Shown here one piece after another: positions 3,097 through 60,708 of a DNA stretch of 60,708 bases. The stretch covers positions 1-60,708 of the forward strand of contig JBDRZL010000010.1 in the NCBI GenBank assembly GCA_039803925.1, given 5' to 3'. A program made the translations under genes and the position numbers. Under the pieces are notes generated by a model. That model saw only the letters and a program-made list of their open reading frames with translations. It searched no databases and was not told where the DNA came from. This DNA comes from a candidate division WOR-3 bacterium. GTDB lineage: Bacteria > Hydrothermota > Hydrothermia > Hydrothermales > JAJRUZ01. The first letter of the stretch is position 1. Every line of letters starts with the position of its first letter.

Positions 3097-4543
3097 AAAA
3101 AACAAAATAAAAAATATCAATTAAATAACCGTATTTAACATAAATAGTCTCATCAGAAAAAATTTTTACCTCACCTTTAATAACACCCCTTTTAAAGAGA
3201 GGAATTTCCTTTAGAATTCTGCCCTTTTCATCAATAACACAACTTATCCCACTTCTTGCTGACCTTACAAGATATCTTCTTGTTTCTATTGCCCTGAAAA
3301 TTGCCAGGTCTCTGTGAACTTTTGGACCAAGAGATTTTCCAAACCAACCATCACTTGTTATATTGATAAGTAAATTAGCACCTTTTTTAACAGCTTCCCT
3401 TGAAATTTCAGTAAAAATTGATTCAAAACATATCGGAACAAATACTAAAAAGTCTTCAATTTTAAACAATCTCAAAGTTTTCCCTCTTGAATAATTTCCC
3501 TGTCCGAAATCAAGTTTTCTTAAAAAGGGAAAAATCTCATCATAGGGTAAAGCCTCACCAAAAGGTGTAAGATGGGTTTTATGGTAATAATCAATAAGCT
3601 CTCCTTTTTTATTTACAAGAAAAGCAGTATTAAAAAATCTGTATTTTCCTTTAATTTTTATTGCATCGGCATTACCAAAAATAAGATAACTTTCAGTTTT
3701 TTTTGTAAAATTACTGACAATTTTCAATACATTTGTATCATATCTTGCAAAAGAAGGAATAGAGGATTCAGGAAATATAGAAATTAAAACTCCTTTAACA
3801 GAAAGAGAATCATATATCTTCTCTGCTATTTTAAATTCCTCTCTCTGAGAATAATTCAGAGGTATGTGAGGTTGATAAAGAGCTATCTCAATTTTTCTAA
3901 ATTCCCTATTTTCTTTTTTTAAAAGATAAATTCCAAAAATATGAAGTAAAAAAATTAAAAAAATAGAAAAAGCTATGTATAATTTTTTTAAAGTGAAAAT
4001 TAAAAAATTAAAAAAAACAATCAAGAAAGTTATAAAAAATGGACCTGTAATTTCAATTATCTGAATTAAAGGTAAATTATTTTTCTGTGATAAAAAAAGA
4101 ACTACCCATGGAAAACCTATTTCTGATTTTGAACGGATTATTTCAAGAAGGGTATAGATTAAGGGCACTAAAAGAAAAGAGAAATTTTCTTTATGGAATT
4201 TTTTAAAAAAATAAGTAAAGATACCAAAATAAACTCCATGGGTTAAAAATATTAAAAAGGTCCCAAGAGTTATCCAAAAACTTGCTTCCTTTTCAATTTG
4301 AGTTAAGTTAAAAATCCAGTTCAACTCGCAAAAAGAAAAAATAGTGCCATACAAAAAGCCTGACAGAAAACTTCTTCTAATCCTTTTTAATAAGACGAAA
4401 AGGGGAATAAAAGAAAAAAAAGCAAAAGGGAAAAAATAAAAAGGAGGAAAGGAAAATAAAAGCAAAATTAAGGATAAAATAAATAAAAGAATATTTTTAA
4501 CTTCTGATTTTTTCAATAATTTCAAGAATCTTAATTCCTTCAT
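3029..4543 (-). CDS. lnt: Apolipoprotein N-acyltransferase
   Basis: A 504-residue inner-membrane enzyme that adds the third acyl chain to the N-terminal cysteine of lipoproteins. The N-terminal ~200 residues form several membrane segments. A nitrilase-type (CN hydrolase) domain follows, with the triad visible: Glu in FPESSIPS (~257), Lys in HKTHLTPFGEALP (~321) and Cys in PICFESIF (~369). A final membrane segment closes the protein, and length matches the family (~510). It is the last gene of the minus-strand run and overlaps the upstream oxidoreductase gene by 47 bases, so a slightly later start is possible. With lspA elsewhere in the window it implies triacylated lipoproteins and hence an outer membrane. 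Confidence 0.93.
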   Translation of the reverse strand: MKELRFLKLLKKSEVKNILLFILSLILLLFSFPPFYFFPFAFFSFIPLFVLLKRIRRSFLSGFLYGTIFSFCELNWIFNLTQIEKEASFWITLGTFLIFLTHGVYFGIFTYFFKKFHKENFSFLLVPLIYTLLEIIRSKSEIGFPWVVLFLSQKNNLPLIQIIEITGPFFITFLIVFFNFLIFTLKKLYIAFSIFLIFLLHIFGIYLLKKENREFRKIEIALYQPHIPLNYSQREEFKIAEKIYDSLSVKGVLISIFPESSIPSFARYDTNVLKIVSNFTKKTESYLIFGNADAIKIKGKYRFFNTAFLVNKKGELIDYYHKTHLTPFGEALPYDEIFPFLRKLDFGQGNYSRGKTLRLFKIEDFLVFVPICFESIFTEISREAVKKGANLLINITSDGWFGKSLGPKVHRDLAIFRAIETRRYLVRSARSGISCVIDEKGRILKEIPLFKRGVIKGEVKIFSDETIYVKYGYLIDIFYFVFFIFLIVLRKFQKFFQVQKGLNI

Positions 4544-5477
4544 CTATTTTGAATTTCGGAATTTCAGCTCCTGTTATAGAGTTAACAAAATGCTCAAGAA
4601 GTAAATCAAAGGAGAGCCTATAAAAACTTTTTTCCTCTGTTATTCTTGGTGTTATATCTATAAGTTGTCCGAAATGTTTCTGAACTATCTTAAAAGGTGA
4701 AAGATAAGCATTTCCCTTTTCACAGTATATTTCAATCTGAAATTTATCACTTTCAATAAAAGGATCCCATAAAATTTCTATTAAAACACCTGTATTATCT
4801 TTTAGTTCTAAATAAAGGGTCCCCTCCCATTCAATTCCATTCTCATTCTTTTTGAAAGCTTTTAAAAACTTTAATGGTTCAGTTTTAAAATATGTATAAT
4901 ATATTTCAAAAATATGAATGAGAGTTGAATGGAAAACTGAACCAGCTGAATTTGGATCCTGCATCCATAAAGGCCCTGAGAATTCAAATCTTTTCCTTCT
5001 TCGTATAAATTTAACATGAATGATATTACCCAGAACCTTTTTATCAAAAACAATTTCCTTTATTTTTAGAATATCAGGCCTTAAAGAATAATTCATCGCA
5101 GGCATATAAATTCTTTGAGTATCAGCAATCTTCTTTTTTAACTCATAAGCCTCTTCCAGTCTTATTGATACAGGTAATTCACAGAGAATATGTTTTCCAT
5201 AAGTGAGAGCAGCAAGTGCAATTGGATAATGAAGATGATTTGGAGTTGTTATAATAACAGCATCAACATTTTTATCAGAAAGTAAATCTTCAAAATCAGT
5301 ATAAATTGCTTCAGCACCATGTATTTCCTTAGCCTTATATAACTTTGCTTCGTCAAGATCACATAAAGCATATAGATTTATCTTATCTCTTAATCTTTTA
5401 ATTGAGGGTATATAACCTATCTGGGAAATATGACCAACACCTATTATTCCAATGTTTATTCTTTTGTTATCAACCAC
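4497..5477 (-). CDS. Gfo/Idh/MocA family oxidoreductase with altered EKP motif
   Basis: A 326-residue protein with an N-terminal Rossmann fold (GIIGVGHISQIGYIPSI, then CDLDEAKLYKA) and the typical NTPNHLHYPIALAAL-like stretch (here TTPNHLHYPIALAAL) before GKHILCE. The family uses NAD(P) to oxidise or reduce sugars, inositols and related compounds. Members normally have EKP after the cysteine, and that lysine is catalytic. Here it reads CELP, with leucine in place of lysine. The protein may therefore have lost classical dehydrogenase chemistry or act on an unusual substrate. It overlaps the sensor gene upstream (8 bases) and lnt downstream (47 bases), so the three are probably co-transcribed. 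Confidence 0.85.
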   Translation of the reverse strand: MVDNKRINIGIIGVGHISQIGYIPSIKRLRDKINLYALCDLDEAKLYKAKEIHGAEAIYTDFEDLLSDKNVDAVIITTPNHLHYPIALAALTYGKHILCELPVSIRLEEAYELKKKIADTQRIYMPAMNYSLRPDILKIKEIVFDKKVLGNIIHVKFIRRRKRFEFSGPLWMQDPNSAGSVFHSTLIHIFEIYYTYFKTEPLKFLKAFKKNENGIEWEGTLYLELKDNTGVLIEILWDPFIESDKFQIEIYCEKGNAYLSPFKIVQKHFGQLIDITPRITEEKSFYRLSFDLLLEHFVNSITGAEIPKFKIDEGIKILEIIEKIRS

Positions 5478-7467
5478 TTCTTATCTCTTCCTCAAGAATT
5501 CTCATTCTATCAGAGATAAGCTTACATTCATTTATTCCATTCTCAATTTTTTCAAGTAGATAATTAATTTCTTTGAGTTCATCTAATATCTCTTTCATTT
5601 TCTGATTACCGGTTTCAGTCTCCTGTAATTCCTCACCTATCAGTCTTATAACTTCTGTAAGCTTGAATACAGTAGTTTCAAAAAACAAAGGTAAATTTTC
5701 AATTTTTGGTAATAGATCAAGAGTATTAATCAAAAGTTCTTTTTCCTTTTCACCAGATTCAGTAAATTTCCTTTTATAATTTTCTATTAATTTTTCATAT
5801 TCAACAATAAAGTTTTTGGTATTTTCAAGTATTTCGCTTGTAGAAGAAAATTCATGGGTCAATTTTGTAATAACATTTTCCACTGATTGAGCAAGTGTCC
5901 CGATTTCTTCTGCTATTATAGAAAATCCCTTTGCTTCCTCACCCATTCTTGTTGCTTCAATAGAGGCATTAAGAGATAAAAGTCTCGTTTTAGAAGCATA
6001 ATCTTTCATAAATTCAACAAAACCCTGTATTTTCTCAAGTAAAGTTACAACCATAAAAATGTTATCCTTTAACCTTTTAAACTCCTCGATTAACTTTCCA
6101 AAACTTTCCTCAGCAATTTTTAAGGAATAAAGTATCATCTCTACTAAAGATCTTTTGCTTCTAAAGAAGGAAACAAAAGAAGAAAGTTCAGAAGAACCTT
6201 TCTCAAATTCACGAGCTATATTTTCAAGAATATCAAAATTTTTACTTATTTTGTCCTGTATATCTCTAAAAGAACCCTCAACATGGGAAAGGGAAAGACC
6301 AAATTTCGAGGTATAAGAAGAGAAATTCTTTAACATTTCAATAAGTCTTGAGGTTTTATCCTTAATAGTCTCTGATAGATCAGGTAATTTCTGGATTGAA
6401 AGATAACTTCCAATTATTCTGCTCACTAAGTAAGAAACAGTTAAAAGTCTTTCTCTATCATCCTCAGAAAAATTATCCTCCAATTTAGATTCAAATATAA
6501 TCAAACCTGATAATTTATTATCCCTGTAAAGAGATATTGCATAAAAGGAAAGAGTATCCTTTGAAATAAATTTATAATCCTTTTCCCTTTTTTTAATATA
6601 AATTCTTTCATTTTTTAATAAATCATTAAAGAGATTAAAAGAAAAAATCTCTCCAACATAATTTTTATCATCAGAAAAAATACACTTAAAATTTTCATTC
6701 TCTTTAACAAAAACTTTCATGGAATCAAAAGGAATATAATCTAAAAGAATTTTTTTTACATCCTGAAAAGCTTTTTCAAGGGAAAAAACACCTGCAAGAC
6801 TTTCCTCTATTTTATGTAAAAGAAAAAGCCTATCAAGTTTTAAAGAATCTCTAAGAGTCAATATACTTATAAAAATAACAGGAATAAGTATAATGAAACC
6901 ATAAATGTTATTATCCCTTAAGAAATTAAAAATAAAGAAAATTAAAGAAGTATAAAAGAAAAGAAAAACAATCTCTCTTGAAAGAATATATAAATGTTTC
7001 TTAAATGAAAATCTTGACTTTAATATTAGAGGAAAATAGAAAAAAAGAGGATATAAAAAAGAGGTAATTATAAGAAAGATAAGCAATTTTAAATTAATCG
7101 AAAAATTTAGATATCTAATAAGACTTAAAAATAATGCTCCTGATAGATAGGAAGAAGAACCATAAAGGACACTCTCTATACTATTTTTTAAAATGAAATG
7201 TCCAAATAAAAATATTGAAAGGAATGAAGCAAAAGCTCCTGAAAAGGGTGATAGGTAAGAGAAGAAAGCAGATATTACAGGACAAAAGGAAAAAAAATAA
7301 AAGTTTCTTATCGGGAATCTAAAAAATCTAAAAAAAAACACAAGAAGAAAAGTTATAACAAAAAGAGGAAGGGAAAAAAACTTTTCTCCTGAAAATGTTA
7401 ATAACCTGTAATGCAAGAAAGAAAAAAATACACTTAAAATTAAATGAATAATGCTTAATAAAGTCAT
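5470..7467 (-). CDS. Membrane GAF-domain protein with MCP-type signalling module
   Basis: A 665-residue protein. Residues ~1-205 form about six to eight membrane segments, ~215-345 look like a GAF sensory domain (KIEESLAGVFSLEKAF onward), and the rest is a long coiled coil. The segment around 489-512 (SKTRLLSLNASIEATRMGEE, then AKGFSIIAEEIGTLA) is the tip of a chemoreceptor signalling hairpin, the CheA/CheW contact site in methyl-accepting chemotaxis proteins. There is no periplasmic ligand domain or obvious HAMP. No che genes are in the window, so its partner kinase is unknown. It lies 16 bases after topA and overlaps the next gene by 8. Confidence 0.75.
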   Translation of the reverse strand: MTLLSIIHLILSVFFSFLHYRLLTFSGEKFFSLPLFVITFLLVFFFRFFRFPIRNFYFFSFCPVISAFFSYLSPFSGAFASFLSIFLFGHFILKNSIESVLYGSSSYLSGALFLSLIRYLNFSINLKLLIFLIITSFLYPLFFYFPLILKSRFSFKKHLYILSREIVFLFFYTSLIFFIFNFLRDNNIYGFIILIPVIFISILTLRDSLKLDRLFLLHKIEESLAGVFSLEKAFQDVKKILLDYIPFDSMKVFVKENENFKCIFSDDKNYVGEIFSFNLFNDLLKNERIYIKKREKDYKFISKDTLSFYAISLYRDNKLSGLIIFESKLEDNFSEDDRERLLTVSYLVSRIIGSYLSIQKLPDLSETIKDKTSRLIEMLKNFSSYTSKFGLSLSHVEGSFRDIQDKISKNFDILENIAREFEKGSSELSSFVSFFRSKRSLVEMILYSLKIAEESFGKLIEEFKRLKDNIFMVVTLLEKIQGFVEFMKDYASKTRLLSLNASIEATRMGEEAKGFSIIAEEIGTLAQSVENVITKLTHEFSSTSEILENTKNFIVEYEKLIENYKRKFTESGEKEKELLINTLDLLPKIENLPLFFETTVFKLTEVIRLIGEELQETETGNQKMKEILDELKEINYLLEKIENGINECKLISDRMRILEEEIRSG

Positions 7468-7483
7468 AAATTATTTTAAGTTA

Positions 7484-9529
7484 TCATTTAAAGAATTTTC
7501 CACAAGAGGGACATCTATAAAAAGTTTTTTTATTTTTATAAATTTTAAAAGAATAATCAAAAGAACAGTAGGGACATCTTTTTTCAAAGGGAGGAAAAGC
7601 TGATACAAATTTACACTCTGGATAAAGAGAACAACCATAAAAAATTTTTTTGTTTTTTCTTTTAACTAAATAACCCTTTTTACATTCAGGGCACAAAAAT
7701 TTCTTTTCAATATAATCCCTTTTATATTTACATTCTGGAAAATTTGAACAGGAAATAAACTTACCATATTTACCCCATTTTACTAAAAGCCTTTCTCCAC
7801 ACTCAGGACATTGCTCCTCAAGATATTCTTCAAGATATTCCTTTTTCAAACCATAAAGATTTTCCTCTACTTTAAATAGAACTTTACTGAATTCTTCCCA
7901 GAAATTTTTGAGAAATTCCTTCCTCCCTAAATTTCCTTTTTCAATTTCATCAAGTAAATCTTCCATTTTCTTAGTAAATTCAACATTAAAAATTTCAGGA
8001 AATTCCTTTACAAGTATATCACAAACTTTTTTACCAAGTTCAGTAGGGAATAAAGTTTTACCTCTTTTTTCCACATAATTTCTCTGATAAAGAATTTCAA
8101 TTATTGGAGCATATGTTGAAGGTCTACCAATTCCAAGTTTTTCTAAAGTCTTAATAAGTTCAGCCTCTGTATATCTTTCAGGTGGATTCGTTTCTTTCTC
8201 TAAAATATTTACATCCTTTATTTTTAATGTTTCCCCTTTTGAAAGCTGAGGAATATAGATTTCCTCAAAATCTTTTCCTATTATTTTCATAAACCCATCA
8301 AAAACTATCTTTTTACCTTTTATTTCTCCTTCAATTTCGCCATTTATAAACTTTATTTTTTTATACTCTACTTTTGCATTTTCAGAAAAAGATGAAAGGG
8401 TTCTTAAATATATAATTTCATAAAGTTTAAGTTCATCCTCCTTTAAATAATTTGAAAGGTCCTCTGGTTTTAAGTTTAACTTTGTAGGTCTTATTCCCTC
8501 ATGTGCTCCCTGAATTCTCCCTTTTTCCTTAAATACTCTCTCCTTTTTTCTAACATATTCCTCCCCGAAAATTTCTCTTATCTTCTTTTTAATCTCAGGT
8601 ACTACTTTCTCACTTATTCTCACAGAATCTGTTCTGTGATATGTTATAAGCCCTATTCTTCCTTCAGGAGTTTCAAGTCCTTCAAATAATCTCTGTGCTA
8701 TCTGCATTGTTTTACCAGGTGAAAAAGAAAGAATCTTGGAAGCACTTTCCTGTAAAGTGCTTGTTTTAAAGGGTTCAGGTGGAGTTATTTCTCTAATTTT
8801 ACTTTCTACATTCTCTACTTTTATAAGAGAATTAAACACTTTATTTTTTATTTCTTCTGCAAACTCTCTTTCCTTTATTTTGCTTACATCCTTCCCCTTA
8901 TATTTTTTTATCTCACCTTTAAACTCAACTCCATTTTTTAAAAATATAACTTCAACCTTAAAAAATTTCTCTGGTATAAATTTCTCTATTTCTCTTTCTC
9001 TTTCTACCAATAATCTCAAAGCAACAGTCTGAACTCTCCCTGCAGATAGTCCCCTTTTTATCAATTTCCAAAGTAGTGGTGAAACCTTATAACCTACAAT
9101 TCTGTCAAGGATTCTTCTTGAAAATTGTGATTCCACTTTATTCATATCAATCTCAACAGGATTCTCCACTCCTTTTTTAACTTCCTCTTCTGTTATTTCG
9201 TAAAAAAGCACTCTTTTGGCATCACTTCTTTTAATTATCTCCTTTATATGAAAAGCAATTGCCTCTCCTTCTCTATCAGGATCTAAGCCCAATAAAATTT
9301 TTTCAGCATCTTTTGCTTCTTTTTTTAGCTCTTCTAAAATTTTTTTCTTACTTTCTATTATTTCAAATTCTGGTTCAAAATCTTTTTCTATATCAATTCC
9401 AAATTTATTTTCAGGTAAATCTTTAACATGACCCCTTGAGGCAAGAACCTTAAATTCACCTTTTAGATATTTTTCAATCGTCTTTGCCTTTGACGGAGAT
9501 TCCACTATAAGAATATTTTTCTTTTTCAT
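7484..9529 (-). CDS. topA: DNA topoisomerase I (type IA)
   Basis: A 681-residue enzyme that relaxes negative supercoils by transient cleavage of one strand. The N-terminal Toprim domain starts NILIVESPSKAKTIEKYL and contains the metal-binding LGLDPDREGEAIAFHI. The catalytic tyrosine is in IGLITYHRTDSVRIS. Three C-terminal zinc ribbons of CxxC type follow (CPECGERLL, CPECKKGYL, CPYCSFDYS). Length and order match bacterial TopA. The start ATG overlaps the stop of the MFS gene by 4 bases, so it is translated from the polycistronic message. Confidence 0.96.
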   Translation of the reverse strand: MKKKNILIVESPSKAKTIEKYLKGEFKVLASRGHVKDLPENKFGIDIEKDFEPEFEIIESKKKILEELKKEAKDAEKILLGLDPDREGEAIAFHIKEIIKRSDAKRVLFYEITEEEVKKGVENPVEIDMNKVESQFSRRILDRIVGYKVSPLLWKLIKRGLSAGRVQTVALRLLVEREREIEKFIPEKFFKVEVIFLKNGVEFKGEIKKYKGKDVSKIKEREFAEEIKNKVFNSLIKVENVESKIREITPPEPFKTSTLQESASKILSFSPGKTMQIAQRLFEGLETPEGRIGLITYHRTDSVRISEKVVPEIKKKIREIFGEEYVRKKERVFKEKGRIQGAHEGIRPTKLNLKPEDLSNYLKEDELKLYEIIYLRTLSSFSENAKVEYKKIKFINGEIEGEIKGKKIVFDGFMKIIGKDFEEIYIPQLSKGETLKIKDVNILEKETNPPERYTEAELIKTLEKLGIGRPSTYAPIIEILYQRNYVEKRGKTLFPTELGKKVCDILVKEFPEIFNVEFTKKMEDLLDEIEKGNLGRKEFLKNFWEEFSKVLFKVEENLYGLKKEYLEEYLEEQCPECGERLLVKWGKYGKFISCSNFPECKYKRDYIEKKFLCPECKKGYLVKRKNKKIFYGCSLYPECKFVSAFPPFEKRCPYCSFDYSFKIYKNKKTFYRCPSCGKFFK

Positions 9530-10791
9530 TTTCTTTTTAAAAGAAAAAATATAGTAGAAATCATTAAAATTAAACCGTTAAAAAATATAATTTTGGCTGG
9601 ATAAATCCATTCAGCAAGAATTCCAAAAATATAGGATAAAATAAGGAATATACCATTTATAATTAACTCCTTACTCGCAAAAATTCTTCCCCTGAATTCT
9701 GAAGGAACATTTTCATGTAAAAGGGTATCTTGAGAAATCATAACAGGTGAAAGCAAAAGACCACCTAAAAAGGATAAAAATCCTATATAGGCAAATTTTT
9801 TGAGAAAGGGAAAGATTATAAGTAAGGCTGAGATTGTAAGAAAGGAATAAATGATAACATTTTTTCTGTCCCATTTATCACCAAGAAAACCCAATATAAA
9901 AGCACCTGAAGCCATTCCAAAAGCTGTTAAAGCCCCAAGTTTTCCAACTCCAGTTGTTCCATATCCAAGAAACTGTTGAACTAAAATAACAATCAAAACA
10001 TATACATTTGCACCTACAAAAACAAGAAATAAAATAGAAAAAAGAACAAAGGATACATTTTTATCTTTCTTTATCAATGAAATGGCGTCTTTTAAATCAG
10101 AAACAGTTTTTTGAAAATAATTTTTTTCCTCCTCAATTATTAATTTTGCAAGTTCTTCTTTTTTATGTGTTCTGTGGTCAGGAATAAAAATAAAAATTAA
10201 AAAAAAGCCCGAAAGGAAAAAAGTGATTCCATCAAGATAAAAACCCGCTTGCCATCCCTCAATACCAAAATTTTTCCATATTTCCCAGTCTACAATAAGT
10301 CCTCCTAAAAAAAGACCAAGAACTGTTGCAAGTCTTCCAGCTAAAGTTATAGTTGAATTAGCTGCTAAAATTTCATCACTTGATTTTAAAAGTCCTGGTA
10401 CTATAGCCATTTTTGTTGCATTATAAACAACACCTATAAGAAAAACAAAAAAGACTATAAAATACATGGGAAATATATGTCTGAAAGATAAAACGAGAAG
10501 AGGTATCATAATAACAAGTATAGCTCTTGCAAAATCACCAAAAATAAGTATTTTTTTTCTATTCATCTTGTCAGCAATTATACCTGCAATTGGTCCAAAA
10601 ATAACACCTGGAATTGTAAAAAAGAAAGCAAGATGTGAAAAGGCAACCGAATGTCCATAAGCGTAAGCTCTAACAAGCGCTATTAAAGCCATATGGTCAA
10701 GTTTATCTCCTATAAGGGAAATTGTTTGAGCAAGGGAATATAAAAGAAAATTCCTGTTTTTAAAAACTTTTGTAATTCCCTTATCTTTCAA
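9526..10791 (-). CDS. Major facilitator superfamily transporter
   Basis: A 421-residue protein with about 12 hydrophobic segments. The loop between segments 2 and 3 has GIIADKMNRKKILIFGD, the MFS signature (GxxxDRxGRR). The related loop FLGDKWDRKNVIIYS occurs in the second half. N-terminal RNRNFLLYSLAQTISLIGD-like residues (here FKNRNFLLYSLAQTISLIGD) place it with the EntS/MFS_3-type exporters rather than sugar permeases. Substrate unknown. It overlaps the GT4 gene by 11 bases and topA by 4. Confidence 0.85.
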   Translation of the reverse strand: MKDKGITKVFKNRNFLLYSLAQTISLIGDKLDHMALIALVRAYAYGHSVAFSHLAFFFTIPGVIFGPIAGIIADKMNRKKILIFGDFARAILVIMIPLLVLSFRHIFPMYFIVFFVFLIGVVYNATKMAIVPGLLKSSDEILAANSTITLAGRLATVLGLFLGGLIVDWEIWKNFGIEGWQAGFYLDGITFFLSGFFLIFIFIPDHRTHKKEELAKLIIEEEKNYFQKTVSDLKDAISLIKKDKNVSFVLFSILFLVFVGANVYVLIVILVQQFLGYGTTGVGKLGALTAFGMASGAFILGFLGDKWDRKNVIIYSFLTISALLIIFPFLKKFAYIGFLSFLGGLLLSPVMISQDTLLHENVPSEFRGRIFASKELIINGIFLILSYIFGILAEWIYPAKIIFFNGLILMISTIFFLLKRK

Positions 10792-11929
10792 TTTTTATTT
10801 TCTCCTTAATTTCAAAATAATAGGACTCAACTTGAGATGCTATTTTATCCCAGGAAAATTTTTCTATAACTTTTTTTCTTCCCATTTCTCCCATCCTTAT
10901 TCTTAAATCCTCATTTTTCAAAAGATAGATTAATTTTTCAGCAATATCATCAGGATTTTTTGGCTCTGAGAAGAAACCCTCCTTTCCATCTTCTAAAACA
11001 AATCTGTAACCCTCTATATTTGAAGCTACAACAGGAACAGATGATGCCATTGCTTCAAGTAAAACAATCCCCTGAGATTCGTACCCTATAGCAGGGGAAC
11101 AAAAAACATGTGAATCAGCGTAAATTTTAGGTAAATCTTCAAAGGAGACTCTCCCGAGAAATGAAACATTATCCTTCAATTCAAATTTTGCTTTTTCTTT
11201 TTCAATTCTTAATAGAGGGCCAGTTCCAACAGCTATAAGATGAGCATCCTTTACTTCATTTATCACTCTTTTAAAAGCTTTTCTTAAATATTTAAAACCC
11301 TTTCTTTGCTCAAATCTCCCTACGAACAAAACAATCTTTTTATTTTTTGGTAAATTACTTTCTCCCTTTTTTGAAGGACTGAACCTTTCAATATCAACTC
11401 CGTTTGGAATAATTCTGTATTCGCCACCGAAATGCCTCTTTATTGAGTCTCTTGCAACTGGAGAAACAGCAATTTTTCCATCAATTTTTTCAAAGATTTT
11501 AATCAAATGTCTTTTAAATATTTCATAAAGTTTTGAAGGGTCGTGAGCAGCATGAAATGTAGAAAAATTTAAGGTATTGGAGTACTTTAAAGCATAATAG
11601 GGCATCATAGGGGCAAGGGGACCATGAGTATGAATAATATCAAATTTACCTTTTTCAATTATTTCCTTTATTTTCTTTCCACCTCTTGCAGAAAAAGTAA
11701 TTCTGCCAACAGATTTATTAAAAAGAATCGGAATTGATTTTCCTATCCTTATTGTCTTTTCATCATCTTTATAATCAGGAAAATCATCTTTACTATAACC
11801 ACATGTTAAAACATAAACATCGTGACCCCTTTTTTCTAATTCTTTTTTTAAATGATAAATATGTTCAGAAATTCCTCCTACATAAGGATAATAAAAATCA
11901 GAAGCAAATAGAATCTTTAAATTTTTCAT
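10781..11929 (-). CDS. Glycosyltransferase family 4
   Basis: A 382-residue GT-B enzyme. The N-terminus has ASDFYYPYVGGISEHIYHL, the acceptor-side glycine-rich loop seen in PimA/MshA-like enzymes. The C-terminal half has VGRFEQRKGFKYL and ESQGIVLLEAMASSVPVVAS, the EX7E nucleotide-sugar motif of family 4. It transfers a sugar from a nucleotide donor, probably to a lipid or surface glycan at the cytoplasmic membrane. The exact linkage cannot be deduced. It overlaps its neighbours by 4 and 11 bases in the aminotransferase-GT4-MFS-topA run. Confidence 0.88.
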   Translation of the reverse strand: MKNLKILFASDFYYPYVGGISEHIYHLKKELEKRGHDVYVLTCGYSKDDFPDYKDDEKTIRIGKSIPILFNKSVGRITFSARGGKKIKEIIEKGKFDIIHTHGPLAPMMPYYALKYSNTLNFSTFHAAHDPSKLYEIFKRHLIKIFEKIDGKIAVSPVARDSIKRHFGGEYRIIPNGVDIERFSPSKKGESNLPKNKKIVLFVGRFEQRKGFKYLRKAFKRVINEVKDAHLIAVGTGPLLRIEKEKAKFELKDNVSFLGRVSFEDLPKIYADSHVFCSPAIGYESQGIVLLEAMASSVPVVASNIEGYRFVLEDGKEGFFSEPKNPDDIAEKLIYLLKNEDLRIRMGEMGRKKVIEKFSWDKIASQVESYYFEIKEKIKIER

Positions 11930-51354: not shown

Positions 51355-53220
51355 TTACCTATTAACTATAACTTTTAAAATTTTTTCCTCCTTATTGTAT
51401 TTTAAAAAATAAATACCCGGGCAAATTCCATCCACGGATAATGAAATTTTTGAATTTAATTTATTCACCATATAAGTTCTAACTTTCTCACCAAGAACAT
51501 TATAAAGTTCAAATTGACTTATTTTATCTTTAATCAAAGGACTTAATTCAATCTTTATTTCGTTTTTAACAATATTATTTAATAATCTGAATTCTTCTTT
51601 TGAAAAATCTTTCTCCTTTATTCCTACTCCATAAAATTCATAAATCTGTAAACCAGCAGCAAAATCAGCAACATAGGCATAATTTCCTGAAACATAAACA
51701 TCAAATGCATATCCAGGTGTATCATAATATCCTGCTTCATATGGTGATGAAGGATCTGAAATATTTATTATCCTTAAACCAGCATCAAGATCAGCAACAT
51801 AGGCATAATTTCCTGAAACATAAACACCACATGCAGATCCAGGTGTATAATAATATCCTGCTTCATATGGTAGTGAGGGATTTGAAATATTTATTATCCT
51901 TAAACCAGCATAATCAGCAACACAGGCATAATTTCCTGAAACATAAACACCCCGTGCCGAGCCAGGTGTATCATAATATCCTGCTCCATATGGTGATGAA
52001 GGATTTGAAATATTTATTATCCTTAAACCAGCACTCCCATCAGCAACATAGGCATAATTTCCTGAAACATAAACACCACATGCCTGTCCAGGTGTATCAT
52101 AATATCCTGCTTCATATGGTGATGAAGGATCTGAAATATTTATTATCCTTAAACCAGCATCATAATCAGCAACATAGGCATAATTTCCTGAAACATAAAC
52201 ATCCCATGCCTGGTCAGGTGTATCATAATATCCTGCTTCATATGGTGATGAAGGATCTGAAATATTTATTATCCTTAAACCAGCATCATAATCAGCAACA
52301 TAGGCATAATTTCCTGAAACATAAACACTAAATGCATATCCAGGTGTATCATAATATCCTGCTTCATATGGTGATGAAGGATTTGAAATATTTATTATCC
52401 TTAAACCAGCATCATAATCAGCAACATAGGCATAATTTCCTGAAACATAAACATCACATGCATATCCAGGTGTATCATAATATCCTGCTTCATATGGTGA
52501 TGAAGGATTTGAAATATCTATTATCCTTAAACCAGCATAAGCATCAGCAACATAGGCATAATTTCCTGAAACATAAACACCATATGCAGATCCAAGTGTA
52601 TCATAATATCCTGCTTCATATGGTGATGAAGGATCTGAAATATTTATTATCCTTAAACCAGCATAATCATCAGCAACATAGGCATAATTTCCTGAAACAT
52701 AAACATCACATGCATATCCAGGTGTATCATAATATCCTGCTTCATATGGTGATGAAGGATTTGAAATATTTATTATCCTTAAACCAGCACTCCCAGCAGC
52801 AACATAGGCATAATTTCCTGAAACATAAACACCGTAAGAATAGGTTGGTGTGAAATAATAACCCAGTTTGATTGGATTTGATGCATCTGTAACATCCCAT
52901 ATCTCAAGTCCACCCTGTCTTGCTGCAATATATAATCTCTTATTTACTGATTCATAAAAAAGACCATAAACAATCCCCCTTGTATGAATTTTTTCTGAAA
53001 CTTTTTGAGGATTAGAAGGATTTGAAACATCTAAAATATATACACCACCACGTGAACCTAAAAATACAAGATTTCTTGAAGGATCAAAAGAAACTGCATA
53101 AGAAGGACCAAATGGCCAGTTACCTATGAATCTGACATTCAGTGAATCAAAGCCTCCTTTTACCTCTTTTTTATCAACAGGGAACCCATTTATTATTTGG
53201 ATTATTATAAATACCCACAT
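51355..53220 (-). CDS. Secreted LVIVD-repeat beta-propeller protein with T9SS type A sorting domain
   Basis: Start chosen at 53220, 14 codons inside the longest frame, because AAAAGGAGG stands just before this ATG and the next residues (MWVFIIIQIINGFPVD) look like a signal peptide. It makes about 621 residues. Two degenerate units are followed by ten near-identical 42-residue LVIVD units (GYYDTPG, then VYVSGNYAYVAD, then GLRIINISDPSSPYEA), predicted to form beta-propellers. The last ~80 residues (LYNVLGEKV, then ISLSVDGICPGIYFLKYN, ending VIVNR) match the Por/T9SS type A C-terminal sorting domain. It is likely a surface or secreted product of the SprA system. Confidence 0.88.
   Translation of the reverse strand: MWVFIIIQIINGFPVDKKEVKGGFDSLNVRFIGNWPFGPSYAVSFDPSRNLVFLGSRGGVYILDVSNPSNPQKVSEKIHTRGIVYGLFYESVNKRLYIAARQGGLEIWDVTDASNPIKLGYYFTPTYSYGVYVSGNYAYVAAGSAGLRIINISNPSSPYEAGYYDTPGYACDVYVSGNYAYVADDYAGLRIINISDPSSPYEAGYYDTLGSAYGVYVSGNYAYVADAYAGLRIIDISNPSSPYEAGYYDTPGYACDVYVSGNYAYVADYDAGLRIINISNPSSPYEAGYYDTPGYAFSVYVSGNYAYVADYDAGLRIINISDPSSPYEAGYYDTPDQAWDVYVSGNYAYVADYDAGLRIINISDPSSPYEAGYYDTPGQACGVYVSGNYAYVADGSAGLRIINISNPSSPYGAGYYDTPGSARGVYVSGNYACVADYAGLRIINISNPSLPYEAGYYYTPGSACGVYVSGNYAYVADLDAGLRIINISDPSSPYEAGYYDTPGYAFDVYVSGNYAYVADFAAGLQIYEFYGVGIKEKDFSKEEFRLLNNIVKNEIKIELSPLIKDKISQFELYNVLGEKVRTYMVNKLNSKISLSVDGICPGIYFLKYNKEEKILKVIVNR
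51640..52863 (-). repeat. Ten tandem ~126-bp coding repeats (LVIVD units)
   Basis: The units are 126 bases (one is 123, having lost a codon) and nearly identical in DNA as well as protein. Variation concentrates in two places: the 3-4 residues after GYYDTPG (for example YACD, QAWD, SARG) and the residues before AGLRII. The high identity means recent expansion, and unit number probably varies between strains. The long forward-strand frames here (51600-52853) are antisense shadows created by the repeats. Confidence 0.93.
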
Positions 53221-53472
53221 ATTTAACCTCCTTTTAATTTTAACAATTAAATTTTGCTCCAAATTTATTTAAAAAGTCAAAACGATGTAGAATACCATAA
53301 CATTTTAGACTGATAAGGATTATTAATATATGTTTTTAAAAAATAAAAGAAGGGGAGAAAAGTTATTTAAAGATTTATGAGGTTTTTTAGTATTATAAAA
53401 GAAAAGGTAATTGATTAACTCAATATTGAATTTTTTTTGTTCAATACGATTACAAGGAGTGTCTACTAAATG

Positions 53473-53795: not shown

Positions 53796-54099
53796 AATTG
53801 GCTACCGATATTAAACAACTTTCAAACCATATTTCTGAAATTTAAAAATGAGATTTATCACACAATACAAACAAAAATAAAGTAACAGTTCTCAGGCTCG
53901 AACGATCGCCTTTGGCAATTTTCCTCGCACTGCTTTCCCTTTATATCCTATAATTCCATTGAGAGAGTTTATTCTTATTTGTTCCAATTCGCCTCGTTAG
54001 ATGTTTCTATCAACATTGTAAGCCACCATTAAAAATCTTTATCATTAACTTCTCGTGGATAAAAATTCTTAAGAGAACTTATTTTTGTGAATTTTTTTC

Positions 54100-54190
54100 A
54101 TATAACGGCTGAGCGTATCTGAAGTTCCGAGCGAAGCGAGGAATTTGGACTACTCTTGAAGGCACAGACTCAAATACGCTCGGTTAGGCG
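54100..54190 (+). repeat. attC-like imperfect inverted repeat
   Basis: The outer parts are ATAACGGCT and CGGTTAGGC; the latter contains GTTAGGC, a perfect integron core site (GTTRRRY). Inside, GAGCGTAT (54111-54118) pairs perfectly with ATACGCTC (54174-54181), and AAGT/ACT extends the stem past a short mismatch. The centre contains GAGCGAAGCGAGGAA. The layout (R box, spacer, L box, variable loop, ~90 bases) is that of integron attC sites, although the 5' ATATAAC matches RYYYAAC only 6 of 7. It ends 73 bases from the helicase stop codon. No integron integrase is in the window. Confidence 0.4.
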
Positions 54191-54262
54191 ACAGGAACAA
54201 ATGTGAGGGCAAACCACGATAGTGGCGAAGCGTTTTGCTTGGCGGTATTTCTATCATTTCTT

Positions 54263-57200
54263 TCATTTCTCGCCGTTTAGATTACTTTCGAGAAATTTTA
54301 AAACGACTCCTCTTTTTAATTGTTCATGACAGAATTGATTTTGATAGTTTCTAAGACAACCATAACAACTTGTTTCCATACCACAGGAACAATTTTTCAC
54401 CCGAGCCAAAGCACTTTTAAGAACTTCACTAAAGTTCTCCTCATCCATTAAGCGTTTCACATGCCCAGCCCCACCAGGAACATTGTCAAATAGAATAAGC
54501 ATAACTCCCTCCTCAGAGGGATAAAGGCAACCATCTAAATCTTGCCTTCTTATTCCAAAGGCTTGACTTGCACCTTCAAGAATTGCATAAAGCGAAGAAT
54601 ACCAAAAACTATCATCTTCTTGTCTAACCTGTGGTTCTTCAAAAAATATAGAAAGTACATCCGTTTTAAAAGTATGTCCAAGATGTGACGGTCCCCTTAG
54701 TGGAGATGAACACTCTATTCCGTAAGGCGTTTTATGTTTTCCTCTTTGCTTTTCAGAAAAGGCTGCTCCGCAAGTAAAACAAATCCAAAATCCAACTCCT
54801 TTTCCTCCTTTACAGATAACAGCTAATTCACCATCTGTGGAATACCTACACTTGATCTTGAATTTGCCGATAGAAAATTCCTTTTTTTCAGGAGTTTTAT
54901 ACGAAAAGAAATAAGGTCTTGTAGTAAATTCTCTCTTAGGCCGTGTCTCACCTGGTTTTCTTGGCTTAAAATCTTTAGAAGTTACAAAACCAAATATAGG
55001 TGTAATGAATTTGTACACTTTTTCCCGTGGAATACTTCCATGACACACGAAAGAAGGTGGCGTCTCCTCAATTGTACCTGTTTTGATGTAAAATCGGCCA
55101 CATTGACCGCAAATAGCATACCAATAAATTGGCCAAGTTTTATTCTTTACAACTCTTAAACCAGCACTTTCCCATACATATCCATTTGCAACCACCTGGC
55201 TACTAGGTGCAAATTCTGAGATTGCTATGCGTAAATCCCTTTCTAGTTGTATATTCTTAGAGGCAGGGATATGGGATAAAATGGCGAGCTCTACAACATC
55301 GACAGGAAAACCATATTTTGGGATAACAATATGTGATGCGAGAAAATCTATAAGTTGTTTTCTTTTGAGCTCTTCTAATCTTCGGCTTGCCCAATCCATA
55401 TCGTTATTTAATTCATTTCTCTTTTTCTGATTAGTCGTGCCTTTCCACTCTTCTTCCTTGTTCTTATAATATTCTTTTAAACGTATAAATTCATCTCTTA
55501 TTTTTTCATCAGCAATAGTAAGTGCTCCATCCTTGCCAATTAGTCTATCTGCCCAACCCCAATTTTCTATATCAAATATGGCATGGAGGTCATAAGGGAT
55601 AATCCTCTTTAATGACTTCAAAATAGACTTTGGCTTTGTTTTAAGATATTCTCTCAATTTTTCTGTTCCTGAAGTTTCTTTACTTTCCAGTTTAAAGAAT
55701 GATTCTACACTTCCGAAATAATCGGGATAATTTCTAAAGAAGTCTGCTAAAACAACAGAATAAAGATGGCGAGAGATGATTTTTTCATTGCGGATTTCAA
55801 CTGCAGGCGGTTTTATTCTTCCTTCCACCATTTTCTCAGACTCTTTAAAGTATGTAAGGTCGTGCGAACGGAGTTGGGCAAAAGTCAATGTAAAACCTAT
55901 AGTATCAAGTCTTCTGCCTGCTCTTCCAGCCCGTTGAATATAATTTGATGGCTCGGGTGGAACATTACGCAGAAATATTGCTTCTAACTCGCCAAGGTCA
56001 ACTCCTAATTCAAATGTTGTTGAGCAACTTAACACATTTATTTCTCCTTTTATAAATTTCTGTTGAATATTTGATGCATAATCTGTGGTAAGTTGAGCTG
56101 TATGCTCGTGCGATGTCATCTTTACAGGAGAAATTTTAGTATAGAGGTAGCGATAGTGATTTTTCAAAATCTCATCTCTATTTTGTGCATCTATTGGTTC
56201 AAGATTACCATTGCAGTTGAAAGTAGGACAAATTTCTTTCACACTTATAGGTGTAATTGTCCCGCATCGATCGCATATAAACCATGGAGAATTCTGATCT
56301 TCTTGAATAATTTTCCAATATTTATAGTCAAGTTTATAAAGCACTCCGTCCCTTGAATTACTAAATTGATGGATACCTTTTCCAGTCCAGTTTCTGCTAA
56401 GGTCTTCCCATATTTTCCCTAAAAGTTTTCTACATTCCTCATTGTCATCACTTTTCTTAGTAATCTTCTTATATAATTTGATTAAATATTCTAACCTTGC
56501 ATTTAACTTCCCAGGAGCAGGAATAAAAGAATATATTCCTTTTCTTATATCAGAACCCTCGCCTCTAAATTTATACTCCTTGTTTCTTGGAGAAAAGAAT
56601 TCGTCTTGAGGGTCTGGACCATCTTCGGGAAAAGTAATAGCCATATTGAAACGCAGAGTGTTAAGCAATACTTGGTATATAGCTATTGCCTCTTCATTAC
56701 TAAGATTCCATGGAGGCTCTTGTAATTCTTTAATCGGTTTCCAATCTTTAGGGATAATAGGTATAAACGATACTAATCCAACTCCCTCTATGGAATTTCT
56801 TCTATCCCAAATGCCGCAAAAATCTTGAAGAATCCATTTCCAGGTCTCTTTTTTCTTCTCTTTTTTATCTATGTCTGAGTCAAACACATTACTTTCTTCA
56901 GCAAGTTGTAAAACATCTTCGCATAGTGATTTAAGTCTATAATCAGATTCGGTTCTATTTTTCTGTAATGCCTCAACAATCAATCGCCGAAACAGAATCC
57001 TTTTGTATGTAAATTCCAGATATGGAGCAAAGAATGCAGCATCCTGCCTGCTATCTGAAAAGATAAGTATTTTTTTCTCCTTTATGCTTTCCTTTTCAAG
57101 ATTCTGGTATAAAGCTGTAGCCAATACTGCAGCTGGTGCATCTTGTTGAAAAATGAATTCTCGAACGATGTCAATAGAACGCAACCCGCACAAATAACAT

Positions 57201-59050
57201 TTATTAAGGATACTACCCTTAGGGGTAATCTCGATCAAGGTTCGTATCGTGTTACTTTCGTGGTTACAAGCGCATACAGGTTTGTCATCCCATATTGCTC
57301 CGCATTTTATACATAATTTCCAAGTTTTACCTCTTTCAGTAATTTCCTCAGGCACTGCAACTTCTTGGTCTTCATCATCCTCTAATTGGGTATCCTCTTC
57401 CCACAAAAGAAAGAATTTGTTTCTCCTTAAAGTGTCTACCTCAGCTAAAGAATGCTTCAATTTTCCTTCCTTAACATCACCAACCAAATATTCTTGTCCA
57501 CATCGGCGACAAGATGCCAGTTCAAAGACTGGATAGCCCTCTTCCGTTAATTCTCGTCTTTCCAAAAATATTTTTGGTTCAGGGTAAAGTGAGACAAAAA
57601 TACCCTCCGGTGCCCGTACAAACAAATGGTAGCGTGCAGGAAAAATGGGGGAGGATTCTCTATCAGGGCGAGCACGAACAGCTAAATTGATAAGGCTGAT
57701 GACATGCTGGCGGTCTTCATCCGATAACATATCCTTCCCAGCAATTTGTTTAATACAGTCCTCTAAATTTTTTGGTCCTTCCTCTAATATACTTTTTAAC
57801 TTTGTAACTTTTTCATCCTTTGAAAGGATCTCATAAAGAAACCTTTTGACATCGCCATTGCACTGCTTTTTTGACTCATTCAAAATATCTTCTGAGATAC
57901 CAAATTTTTTACAGATTTCGTAACATTGCTCTAATATAGAATCTTCAGATTTTTCTCGAATTACCCTATCTAACTCCGAGTATAACTGGATCGGGTAATT
58001 GATAGTGGGTTTTTCAATTTGAGTTTTAATCTTTTCACCTTTTATTACATCTTGTCGTTGAGGATCCTGTGGTTCATATTCAAATTTTTCTCCAAATAGT
58101 TTTGTAGCAAACTCTGCTACTTTGCCAAAATCCTCCTCTTCCTTTACCAGGGTAGCGCTGGTTGCTATACATTGTAGATCACCCTCCATATTTTTACAAA
58201 CTCTGTCTTTTAAACGGCGAATAAGCATGGCCATTTCAATACCAGAAGCTCCGCTGTAGATATGTGCCTCATCCAGGATTAAGAATTTCCAATTCTTTGC
58301 GTATTCGCCATCAAAGAAAGGCGAATCTTGCGGTCTTAAAAGTAAGTATTCAAGCATTGCATAGTTTGTTATAAGGATATGGGGTGGATTTTCTCGCATT
58401 TCCTCTCTTGAGAGAAGCTCACTTTTTACAGGTTCTACACCTGGATTTCTAAACCTAAATTGTGCTTCCCCTTCTTTCTTACTTTCTGGTGTATCTCCCA
58501 CATATCTGCCAAAGGTGATATTCACATCTTGTAGTTTCTTTTCCATAATTCTTGCAATTTCTCTTAGTCTTCGCAATTGGTCATTTGCCAATGCATTCAT
58601 AGGATATAACAGAAGTGCACGCACCCCTGGTGTAAGTTTACCTTCTTCATATTCCCTCAGAAGATGGTTAAAAATAGGTATAAGAAAGCATTCAGTTTTT
58701 CCACTTGCAGTGCCAGAAGCAATAACCACATTACGACCATTAAGTATCTTTCTAATTGCTTTTTCTTGATGCAAATATAGAGGACTGTTACGCAAATAAG
58801 GAAGGGCACCATAAATAACCTCTTCTAATTTCTCGGTTAGTACCCCTTCTTTAATCAAATCTCTCAGATAACAACCCCTTTTAAATGGTGGTGTTGCTTC
58901 TAATATTGGACCATTCGTAAACCAGAACTTCTCAGCTTCCTGGCGAAATAGTTTACGCAGATTTGCATCTCTTAAACGAAAAGTACTTGTTAAATATCTA
59001 ACATAACTTTCTCTAATATTCTGTGTTACTTTAAGCGGATCTATTGCCAT
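54263..59050 (-). CDS. Large DEAH-box helicase with DUF1998-like C-terminus
   Basis: A 1595-residue superfamily 2 helicase. Walker A is SGTASGKTE (~112-120), motif Ia LLYPMNALANDQL, motif II LDEAH (~259-263), motif III TSAT (~297-300), then IFSDSRQDAA (~663) and, after a long insert, TTFELGVDLGELEAIFLRN and YIQRAGRAGRR (~1011-1047). Several CxxC zinc pairs lie between (CRRCGQEY, CIKCGAIW, CYLCGLR, CDRCGTI, CGQCGRFY, CFTCGAAF). The end has DNVPGGAGH and a cysteine cluster (CSCGMETSCYGCLRNYQ), as in DUF1998/MrfA-like helicases. The architecture recalls large helicases of DISARM and Druantia defence systems. The ribosome site AAGGAGGT overlaps the end of the upstream gene. Confidence 0.85.
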   Translation of the reverse strand: MAIDPLKVTQNIRESYVRYLTSTFRLRDANLRKLFRQEAEKFWFTNGPILEATPPFKRGCYLRDLIKEGVLTEKLEEVIYGALPYLRNSPLYLHQEKAIRKILNGRNVVIASGTASGKTECFLIPIFNHLLREYEEGKLTPGVRALLLYPMNALANDQLRRLREIARIMEKKLQDVNITFGRYVGDTPESKKEGEAQFRFRNPGVEPVKSELLSREEMRENPPHILITNYAMLEYLLLRPQDSPFFDGEYAKNWKFLILDEAHIYSGASGIEMAMLIRRLKDRVCKNMEGDLQCIATSATLVKEEEDFGKVAEFATKLFGEKFEYEPQDPQRQDVIKGEKIKTQIEKPTINYPIQLYSELDRVIREKSEDSILEQCYEICKKFGISEDILNESKKQCNGDVKRFLYEILSKDEKVTKLKSILEEGPKNLEDCIKQIAGKDMLSDEDRQHVISLINLAVRARPDRESSPIFPARYHLFVRAPEGIFVSLYPEPKIFLERRELTEEGYPVFELASCRRCGQEYLVGDVKEGKLKHSLAEVDTLRRNKFFLLWEEDTQLEDDEDQEVAVPEEITERGKTWKLCIKCGAIWDDKPVCACNHESNTIRTLIEITPKGSILNKCYLCGLRSIDIVREFIFQQDAPAAVLATALYQNLEKESIKEKKILIFSDSRQDAAFFAPYLEFTYKRILFRRLIVEALQKNRTESDYRLKSLCEDVLQLAEESNVFDSDIDKKEKKKETWKWILQDFCGIWDRRNSIEGVGLVSFIPIIPKDWKPIKELQEPPWNLSNEEAIAIYQVLLNTLRFNMAITFPEDGPDPQDEFFSPRNKEYKFRGEGSDIRKGIYSFIPAPGKLNARLEYLIKLYKKITKKSDDNEECRKLLGKIWEDLSRNWTGKGIHQFSNSRDGVLYKLDYKYWKIIQEDQNSPWFICDRCGTITPISVKEICPTFNCNGNLEPIDAQNRDEILKNHYRYLYTKISPVKMTSHEHTAQLTTDYASNIQQKFIKGEINVLSCSTTFELGVDLGELEAIFLRNVPPEPSNYIQRAGRAGRRLDTIGFTLTFAQLRSHDLTYFKESEKMVEGRIKPPAVEIRNEKIISRHLYSVVLADFFRNYPDYFGSVESFFKLESKETSGTEKLREYLKTKPKSILKSLKRIIPYDLHAIFDIENWGWADRLIGKDGALTIADEKIRDEFIRLKEYYKNKEEEWKGTTNQKKRNELNNDMDWASRRLEELKRKQLIDFLASHIVIPKYGFPVDVVELAILSHIPASKNIQLERDLRIAISEFAPSSQVVANGYVWESAGLRVVKNKTWPIYWYAICGQCGRFYIKTGTIEETPPSFVCHGSIPREKVYKFITPIFGFVTSKDFKPRKPGETRPKREFTTRPYFFSYKTPEKKEFSIGKFKIKCRYSTDGELAVICKGGKGVGFWICFTCGAAFSEKQRGKHKTPYGIECSSPLRGPSHLGHTFKTDVLSIFFEEPQVRQEDDSFWYSSLYAILEGASQAFGIRRQDLDGCLYPSEEGVMLILFDNVPGGAGHVKRLMDEENFSEVLKSALARVKNCSCGMETSCYGCLRNYQNQFCHEQLKRGVVLKFLESNLNGEK

Positions 59051-59052
59051 TT

Positions 59053-60708
59053 TTATTTACCTCCTTTTAATGATTTTAAAATTTCAACATTCTTTGAATA
59101 TATGCTTTTTCTTCGTTTATCAAATGGAATATTTAAGCGACGAATATCATTCATATCCATGCCAGCTTCAATTATTTCTCCTTTACTAAAACCTTTACCT
59201 TTTCTAATCCTTCCAGCACCACCCATCACATCAGGTCTTATATTTTTCATGTTTTTTCTCTTCTTCGAAAGTTCAACTGTGACTGAGGGCATTAGTGGTT
59301 TATCCTCGCGTTTCTCTTTTGTTATCCCAGGTAAATGTATAACATCAACTTGGTTTAATAATTTTTTGTCTCCTGCTATTCGAATTTCCAACCTGATAAT
59401 CATTCTTTCGTTATTTTTCTTGATAGTATCATAAAACTGATTTAGTAATAGGTTATATGTCATATCTTTTCTTATAAATTTTGCTTCTTGCAACTTTTGG
59501 CCATTTGTTTCGAGAATAGCCAAAAGATCATATTTTGTATCAAAATCATTTGTGCAAATCATAAGATAAAAATCTGTTCCGGTAACCAATTCCTCTCTTT
59601 GTATGTGTAGAGGTTTATCATACCATGTTTCGTCTTTTGAAGTTTTCCATTTTAATCTCTTGAGAGTTATTTGGAAACCCGTTTTGGTCTCTGGTTTATC
59701 TTTTTTCACGAGTGAAAAACGAAGAACATTTTGTTCTGGTGAAAGTTCAACCTGATAGCCATTTTCTAAATACTTGTATTGGAACACTTTGTCAATTATT
59801 AACTCCCAATCCTGAAAATCTCTTTCCCAAAGAATTTGGATAATTTCTTGCTTATGCCCTCTGTTTGCCTCTGGGATTATAAGGCTTCTCGGATATATTA
59901 ATTGAAGATAGGGGATATAACGAAAGAATAGCGTCTCAGCAGGAAATCCATCTTTCTGTTCGCAGATATCCACCTGAAATTCTCCACATTCGCAAGGTAG
60001 GTAATCGGGTAGTTTTAACTCTAACGGCTCACTGCCTGTCCAATTCTCGGTAATAACTTTATAACCTGCCTGCCTATTTTGGATCCAGATTACCCAGCCC
60101 GATGGATTTACTGTTGGTGCTTTTATTTTGATGCTATTACCTGCAAATAGGGGCATTTGATTTTTGAAATCATCCTCAATTAATGCATCAGATTCTACCA
60201 AAAAAGATAGCTTACAAGGTATTTTCAACTCTTCTTCAGTTTGCCTGTTCTTTATCACAAGTTCATTGGTATTTTTTAAATTAATACATATTAGCTTGTA
60301 TTTTTCCCAAATCCATCTTTCGTAAATTATATCTGGATCAATGCTTGATTCAAAATCTTCCTTAAGAAGGAACCAAACATTTTTTCTGGGAAGAGGATTA
60401 ATAATCCCTTCCTCATTATATAGGTAATGCATTCTACCGCGGTTATTTCCTGTCGCAATAAATGGATATAGAATTTCATTTCTGTGTTTATAAATGTAAA
60501 CTCTTCCTTGAAGTTCATCTGGATAAACAATCTTAAACTCCTTTAATGGTTCTTCTAAATATTTTCTTTTTTCCTTTACTGTTATAATGCCTTGTTCATT
60601 CTTGCTTACTCTTACAGAAATAGTTTGTTCATTTCCATTATTTAACAGCAATTTATAGGATAGTTGCCGTGGAATATTGTTTATCGCTTTGAATTTCTGC
60701 TCTGGTAT
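59053..60708 (-). CDS. Unknown protein with C-terminal ribosomal L13e-like domain, 5' end outside the window
   Basis: The frame stays open to the window edge (upstream codons read QLSYKLLLNNG), so the true start lies beyond 60708 and at least ~551 residues are encoded. The bulk appears beta-rich, with blocks such as GWVIWIQNRQAGYKV and CECGEFQVDICEQKDGFPA, and no family I recognise. The last ~50 residues read GRIRKGKGFSKGEIIEAGMD, then IRRLNIPFDKRRKSIYSKNV and EILKSL. This matches the eL13 (L13e) signature GRGFSLEEL..AG..ARxIGIxVDxRR..NVxxLK. It is translated 2 bases before the helicase, whose ribosome site lies in its final Gly-Gly codons, so the two are coupled. Confidence 0.7.
   Translation of the reverse strand: MPEQKFKAINNIPRQLSYKLLLNNGNEQTISVRVSKNEQGIITVKEKRKYLEEPLKEFKIVYPDELQGRVYIYKHRNEILYPFIATGNNRGRMHYLYNEEGIINPLPRKNVWFLLKEDFESSIDPDIIYERWIWEKYKLICINLKNTNELVIKNRQTEEELKIPCKLSFLVESDALIEDDFKNQMPLFAGNSIKIKAPTVNPSGWVIWIQNRQAGYKVITENWTGSEPLELKLPDYLPCECGEFQVDICEQKDGFPAETLFFRYIPYLQLIYPRSLIIPEANRGHKQEIIQILWERDFQDWELIIDKVFQYKYLENGYQVELSPEQNVLRFSLVKKDKPETKTGFQITLKRLKWKTSKDETWYDKPLHIQREELVTGTDFYLMICTNDFDTKYDLLAILETNGQKLQEAKFIRKDMTYNLLLNQFYDTIKKNNERMIIRLEIRIAGDKKLLNQVDVIHLPGITKEKREDKPLMPSVTVELSKKRKNMKNIRPDVMGGAGRIRKGKGFSKGEIIEAGMDMNDIRRLNIPFDKRRKSIYSKNVEILKSLKGGK

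Follow-up and report, generated by a model that had tools for sequence, protein, structure and literature searches.

The window analysed here, a stretch of 60,708 bases that forms one complete contig (C10) of a 1.84-Mb, 29-contig genome, ends in two minus-strand genes that probably constitute a divergent anti-phage system resembling Druantia type III, carried as an integron-type gene cassette of about 7 kb. The first gene (59053 to 60708) encodes a putative minimal DruH-like protein, hereafter the partner, of which 551 residues are present, its N-terminus being lost at the contig end. The second gene, 3' of the first (54263 to 59050), encodes a Druantia-type DEAH helicase of the YprA family with 1,595 residues. 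Judging from sequence comparison, the pair is of an already known kind, being Druantia III-like through its helicase and, by a stepwise link, through its partner. What is new is the cassette form, about 7 kb long and bounded by attC-type sites, together with the exchange of ribosomal-protein or sigma-factor tails on the partner.

The gene pair and its relation to Druantia

The two genes lie 2 bp apart. The partner ends with a TAA at 59053-59055, the helicase begins with an ATG at 59050, and the Shine-Dalgarno sequence of the helicase, AAGGAGG, sits nine bases upstream of that ATG (59060-59066, minus strand), within the partner's final codons. This coupling had been singled out in a preliminary description of the DNA, and it recurs in relatives: the partner and helicase frames overlap by four bases in genomes G070 and G071. 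The same description placed the end of the window inside the operon. Indeed, the contig genuinely stops at 60708, the operon cannot be extended in the present assembly, and the partner is cut off, with about 230 residues missing relative to its homolog at locus L042.

The helicase contains a RecA1/DEAD domain at residues 94-307 (58130-58771; Pfam PF00270, E = 9e-27), a helicase C-terminal domain at residues 973-1046 (55913-56134; PF00271, E = 4e-12) and, in the same polypeptide, an MrfA-type Zn-binding domain (MZB/DUF1998) at residues 1488-1566 (54353-54589; PF09369, E = 1e-13), all on the minus strand. It is therefore the DUF1998-type DEAH helicase initially proposed and, as expected of Druantia III, a YprA-family superfamily 2 helicase with a fused MZB domain. 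Among the PADLOC models, DruE1 (637.8 bits) and DruE3 (570 bits) outscore all others by hundreds of bits, whereas DrmA reaches just 59 bits; matches in the PDB are a 2108-residue helicase, a 1970-residue helicase and YprA. The closest helicases, 75 to 79% identical over the aligned length, come from G003 (same family), an Aquificaceae bin (L042) and an Archaeoglobus bin (L041). Together with the window helicase, these three make up one clade (support of 1.0) in an 85-helicase tree rooted on canonical DruE; the Archaeoglobus copy is the sister of the window copy (support of 0.93). Full-length identity is about 40% to many helicases located directly behind DruH-like genes. On this evidence, the window helicase groups with the Druantia helicases and not with those of DISARM. 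Its C-terminus lies only 29 residues past the MZB domain; Pfam detects no PLD nuclease domains there, and the Vsr tail of ARMADA is likewise absent from the protein. A C-terminal PLD domain characterizes the helicases of Druantia III-A and a Vsr domain those of ARMADA, while the III-B-like branch of Druantia mostly lacks a nuclease domain (PMC12458937).

Most of the genes directly upstream of 80 related helicases fall into the similarity cluster of the partner (single linkage). AlphaFold2 predicts the partner core as a row of beta-sandwich domains, with a predicted local distance difference test score (pLDDT) mostly above 80 over residues 190-460. Foldseek matches this model, with a probability of 1.0, to the tandem immunoglobulin (Ig)-type domains of complement C5, MAG and ICAM; whole-chain template-modelling scores are low, as expected of flexibly joined strings of domains. 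We assign the tandem Ig-like domains to residues 137-459 (59332-60300, minus strand). In the published description (PMC13192584), DruH has three Ig-like domains and probably senses infection in Druantia III; the predicted fold of the partner agrees with this account. The PADLOC models for DruH match neither the partner nor the seven long partners of the group that were tried. The connection to DruH emerges in two steps. Short partners align with long ones (1000-1600 residues) over 402 columns (Prob 99, E = 8e-18), and long partners align with canonical DruH (Escherichia coli YjiT and the STY4851 family), also over 402 columns (Prob 91, E = 9e-7), both E-values being pairwise and uncalibrated. 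The partner had at first been taken for a wholly new component; its core appears instead to be a divergent DruH.

Complete partners of relatives measure about 680-810 residues, against about 1100 for DruH, and the conserved N-terminal helical domain of DruH is absent from these short forms. A hydrophobic N-terminal helix followed by a charged linker is found in the partners of L041, L042, G070, L085 and L086. We read the partner as a minimal DruH in which this helix and linker stand in place of the DruH N-terminal domain. The window copy would have lost its membrane-type N-terminus at the contig end, and by this comparison it would be located at the membrane. The partner at L066 (1352 residues, from a methanogen lineage) combines the long DruH-like architecture with an eL13 tail, bridging the short and long types.

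Overall, the closest known system is Druantia type III, above all its III-B-like branch. The pair shares with it the order of two genes, a putative DruH-like one and then a DruE-like one, as well as the YprA-family helicase with a fused MZB domain, the Ig-like partner domains and the defence-type neighbours. It differs in its shorter partner, in which the DruH N-terminal helical domain is lacking, the N-terminus is of membrane type and the tail comes from a ribosomal protein, and, from III-A, in having no PLD nuclease domains on the helicase. Since the DruH link is indirect and the nuclease feature of III-A is missing, we do not file the pair as a confirmed member of Druantia III.

The attC-type site and the cassette form

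The module is closed by an attC-type recombination site at 54099-54192 (minus strand), with an R'' box GCCTAAC, a 12-bp L stem, an R' box GTTATAT and the junction G at 54106, laid out as R''-L''-L'-R'. Covariance model R1, built from four sites of other genomes only, one of them in joined, circular form, detects this site with 46.9 bits (E = 6e-10) as the sole one in the genome; the attC-like repeat noticed earlier thus stands up to a model made without the window. As in integron cassettes, the R and L boxes lie downstream of the genes. The segment between the helicase stop and the site (54193-54262, minus strand; CCGCCAAGC.AAACGCTTCGCCACTATCGTGG) is a conserved cassette end. G003 and L042 have it downstream of the helicase too, and in both its reverse complement matches the left end. 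There, the left end of the module carries an R' box, GTTAGGC, to which the window R'' box is complementary. Complementarity between left R' and right R'' holds in G003 and L042 and reaches six of seven positions in L085. No Rfam family matches the site, and a home-made attC scanner returned an excess of chance matches that made it unusable alone. Folding energies of single attC sites are not significant (z of -0.86 and -0.87); therefore, the case for attC rests on layout, covariance model and junctions.

Two relatives reveal the borders of the module. In G003, from a sister genus, three consecutive attC-type sites with matching R'/R'' boxes occur in the order GTTAGGC, module, GCCTAAC/GTTGTCC, methylase plus MjaI-type endonuclease, GGACAAC/GTTAAGT, decayed third cassette. 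In L042, the module is an exact insertion of 7,257 bp (4671-11927) within hsdM, at G^ATG. Joining the flanks in silico restores a 514-residue HsdM open reading frame, 99% of which lines up with uninterrupted HsdM proteins. The target consensus of attG sites is GWT, and the L042 insertion lies at a G^WT-type point and left no target duplication. This target agrees with published attG sites (Loot et al. 2024, as cited in PMC12901181). Cassette lengths are 7,222 bp in G003, 7,257 bp in L042 and 7,123 bp in L085. The module shares with integron cassettes and with clusters of attC sites lacking integrases (CALINs) the attC-type site after the genes, the start codon near the left end, the R'/R'' complementarity, the G^WT-type insertion point and the adjoining cassettes. 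It differs in its length of about 7.1-7.3 kb, integron cassettes usually being about 1 kb, in its two large cotranslated genes, in crossing phyla and in that no integrase was found. CALINs are known, so an integrase may act in trans.

Other attC-type sites were seen around these loci. The cassette beside the module in G003 (L008, G003:C3, 15103-17221) spans 2,119 bp and encodes a DNA methylase of the N6/N4 type and the MjaI-type restriction endonuclease, while the third, decayed cassette (L008, 17290-17936) seems on visual inspection to contain a nucleotidyltransferase/HEPN toxin-antitoxin pair. Additional arrays of attC-type sites exist in G003 and G070. Such sites also lie beside GmrSD (DUF262) genes at L161 (G003:C80), L163 (G070:C46) and L164 (G005:C75), one of them near a weak Mrr-type nuclease match as well. 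Integrase-less defence cassettes may be common in the phylum. At L041, a perfect 74-bp direct repeat (3639-3712 and 11640-11713) flanks the Archaeoglobus copy of the module. Covariance searches found no attC-type ends at the G070 or G071 loci; hence, not every member travels as a cassette.

Several points count against a Druantia-like pair carried in an integron-type cassette. Profiles of the short partners yield no link when set directly against canonical DruH, which is reached only via the long partners and with the uncalibrated E-values given above, and the AlphaFold2 model has a mean pLDDT of just 68.8, with a poorly modelled tail. The left cassette end of the window itself lies beyond the contig. 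The G003 copy is decayed, with an in-frame TAA in the partner (L008, 8632-8634) and a frameshift near the helicase C-terminus (around 14620). Most of the genomes compared are metagenome bins, which makes host assignments such as Archaeoglobus uncertain. Finally, no integron integrase scored above the NCBIfam TIGR02249 cutoff in 14 genomes. An integron integrase would be the mover of the cassette under our preferred reading, and, given this negative result, movement would require an integrase working in trans or some other enzyme.

The missing integrase is also an argument for seeing the repeats as ends of another mobile element, such as a different Y-recombinase element or a single-strand transposon with hairpin ends, as are a complementarity of the cassette ends that exceeds the usual 7-bp box and a left junction in L085 of A^TT rather than G^TT. 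Yet insertion at a G without target duplication, the R''-L''-L'-R' layout, the R'/R'' match across consecutive cassettes with different cargo and the further arrays in G003 and G070 all favor integron-type cassettes. We regard another element as improbable; it would leave the defence reading of the genes unaffected.

The exchangeable tail of the partner

The partner ends in a tail resembling ribosomal protein eL13 (residues 500-547; 59068-59211, minus strand). NCBIfam PRK12277 (L13e) recognizes it with an E-value of 9.7e-15, whereas Pfam gives 6.6e-4, which is under its cutoff; when partner profile A4 was run against the PDB, the matches were eL13 chains only. The L13e-like tail first reported is thus real. 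It is shared by the window, G003, G070, L042, L085 and L066. In other relatives, the same position is occupied by different domains: uS9 in G071, L072, L086 and L097 (Pfam E-values from 2e-10 to 7e-17), RpoD-like sigma regions 2-3-4 in L062 and L068 (Chloroflexota), C2H2-type zinc fingers in L078 by Pfam and in others by eye, and an unrelated helical tail in L041. We found no paper connecting L13e with such a defence system in the literature that was searched.

The exchange is clearest between close relatives. Namely, the helicases of G070, a bacterial bin, and L086, an archaeal bin, are sisters with support of 1.0. As far as residue ~600, their partners share 50-90% identity; beyond it the two are unrelated, with eL13 in G070 and uS9 in L086. 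On the helicase tree, the eL13 state requires five changes for six leaves and the C2H2 state five for eight. From these alignments, the tail slot is exchanged between relatives. Every identified tail belongs to a nucleic-acid-binding family, so the tail would be expected to bind DNA or RNA. The Chloroflexota proteins upstream of the helicase in L062 and L068 are DruH-like, about 1345 residues long, and end in most of an RpoD-type sigma factor. RpoD-like sigma domains are likewise part of a defence system in MzaA of MZA, and the NCBIfam MzaA model scores 232 bits on L062, under its cutoff. MzaA is a separate protein, however, whereas in L062 and L068 the sigma domains form the C-terminus of the DruH-like partner.

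How the pair might work can be proposed by analogy. The partner would be anchored by its membrane-associated N-terminal helix and charged linker, and its Ig-like sensor domains, together with the nucleic-acid-binding tail, here eL13-like, would recognize, close to the membrane, an intermediate of phage replication or expression. It would then load or license the DruE-like helicase, produced by coupled translation, on 3'-tailed single-stranded DNA, and phage DNA replication would be stopped by helicase action. In Druantia III, DruE loads on 3'-tailed DNA (PMC13192584), and an interaction between DruH and DruE is required in mycobacteria (PMC13316683). DNA cleavage, if any, would need a host nuclease, since the helicase has no recognizable C-terminal nuclease. 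We give roughly even chances to a broader proposal, in which the C-terminus of DruH-like proteins is an exchangeable targeting head (eL13, uS9, RpoD-type sigma or zinc fingers) that directs the helicase to a particular nucleic-acid intermediate, entire pairs of sensor and helicase having spread among bacterial phyla and archaea, partly as attC-bounded cassettes of about 7 kb.

Alternatively, the tail could be an integrated decoy, a bait imitating proteins of host translation or transcription that are targets of phages; the helicase would be triggered once a phage protein binds. Several tails do correspond to proteins with which the host processes information (uS9, as well as RpoD regions 2-4 in Chloroflexota), and DruH has been proposed as the protein-recognizing sensor of Druantia III (PMC13192584). 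However, eL13 is not known as a ribosomal protein of bacteria, and eL13 tails occur in bacteria (the window, G003, G070, L042 and L085), which disfavors a host-ribosome decoy. In the archaeal locus L086, the uS9 tail fits the bacterial uS9 model better than the archaeal one (41.7 versus 30.5 bits), and the C2H2 tails have no comparable host counterpart. We therefore rate a decoy as rather unlikely compared with a targeting head.

Distribution, neighbours and significance

The pair is present in 4 of 147 genomes of the phylum, and close homologs are found in the Archaeoglobus and Aquificaceae bins. It is absent from two genomes of the same genus, G002 and G001 (the latter 95% identical at nusG), also at the corresponding chromosomal place next to nusG. 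In G070, a Type ISP restriction enzyme lies upstream of the pair and a GmrSD gene downstream; in G071, a GmrSD gene lies upstream. The pair thus recurs beside defence genes, GmrSD, Type ISP and restriction-modification genes among them, and, with its Druantia-like helicase and attC-type bounds, it fits the mobile defence-type module first suggested. By sequence, partner relatives were found neither in phage or plasmid records nor in a partner scan of viral contigs.

This pattern bears on whether the pair could be a DNA-repair or housekeeping system of the YprA/MrfA kind rather than an immune one. The MZB domain is indeed common to the repair helicase MrfA/YprA. Yet the margin of the DruE models, the lack of an MrfB-like exonuclease partner, the sporadic occurrence, the restriction-type neighbours and the absence from same-genus genomes all argue for defence, and the profile searches placed neither gene in a housekeeping pathway; a repair function seems very unlikely. 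Least credible of all is that the locus represents a remnant or an atypical form of DISARM or ARMADA, which we reject on gene content in spite of the related YprA-family helicase with a DUF1998-type Zn domain and the weak DrmA match: DISARM encodes the helicase (DrmA) and the DUF1998 protein (DrmB) in separate genes, whereas here, as in Druantia, a single protein holds both helicase and Zn domain, the Vsr tail is lacking, and the complete cassettes of G003 and L042 contain no BrxHII helicase, PglX methylase or PLD nuclease, the methylases near them belonging to another cassette or to the interrupted hsdM. The preliminary description had likewise found no recognizable DISARM locus.

Composition was considered as a sign of foreign origin and rejected. 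The module is, as first described, less A+T-rich than the remaining window (35.8% versus 30.6% GC), but rpoB in the window, at 35.0% GC, equals it. The decayed region reported next to the module is borne out: between 53263 and 54262 there is no open reading frame of at least 80 residues, and fragments match a sister genome. Beyond it, positions 51355-53262 encode a secreted-looking protein with about 10 near-identical 42-residue repeats (YVSGNYAYVAD..GLRIINIS), which also occur at the corresponding place in sister genome G001.

Anti-phage activity of the pair and licensing of the helicase by the partner would follow by analogy with Druantia III. Natural tail swaps between close partners bear on what Druantia senses and amount to an experiment already set up: a tail that sets specificity should, once exchanged, alter the range of phages stopped. 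If the cassette finding is true, whole multikilobase immune systems, beyond small genes, are open to integron-type capture, which gives a route for one defence pair into several bacterial phyla and possibly archaea.

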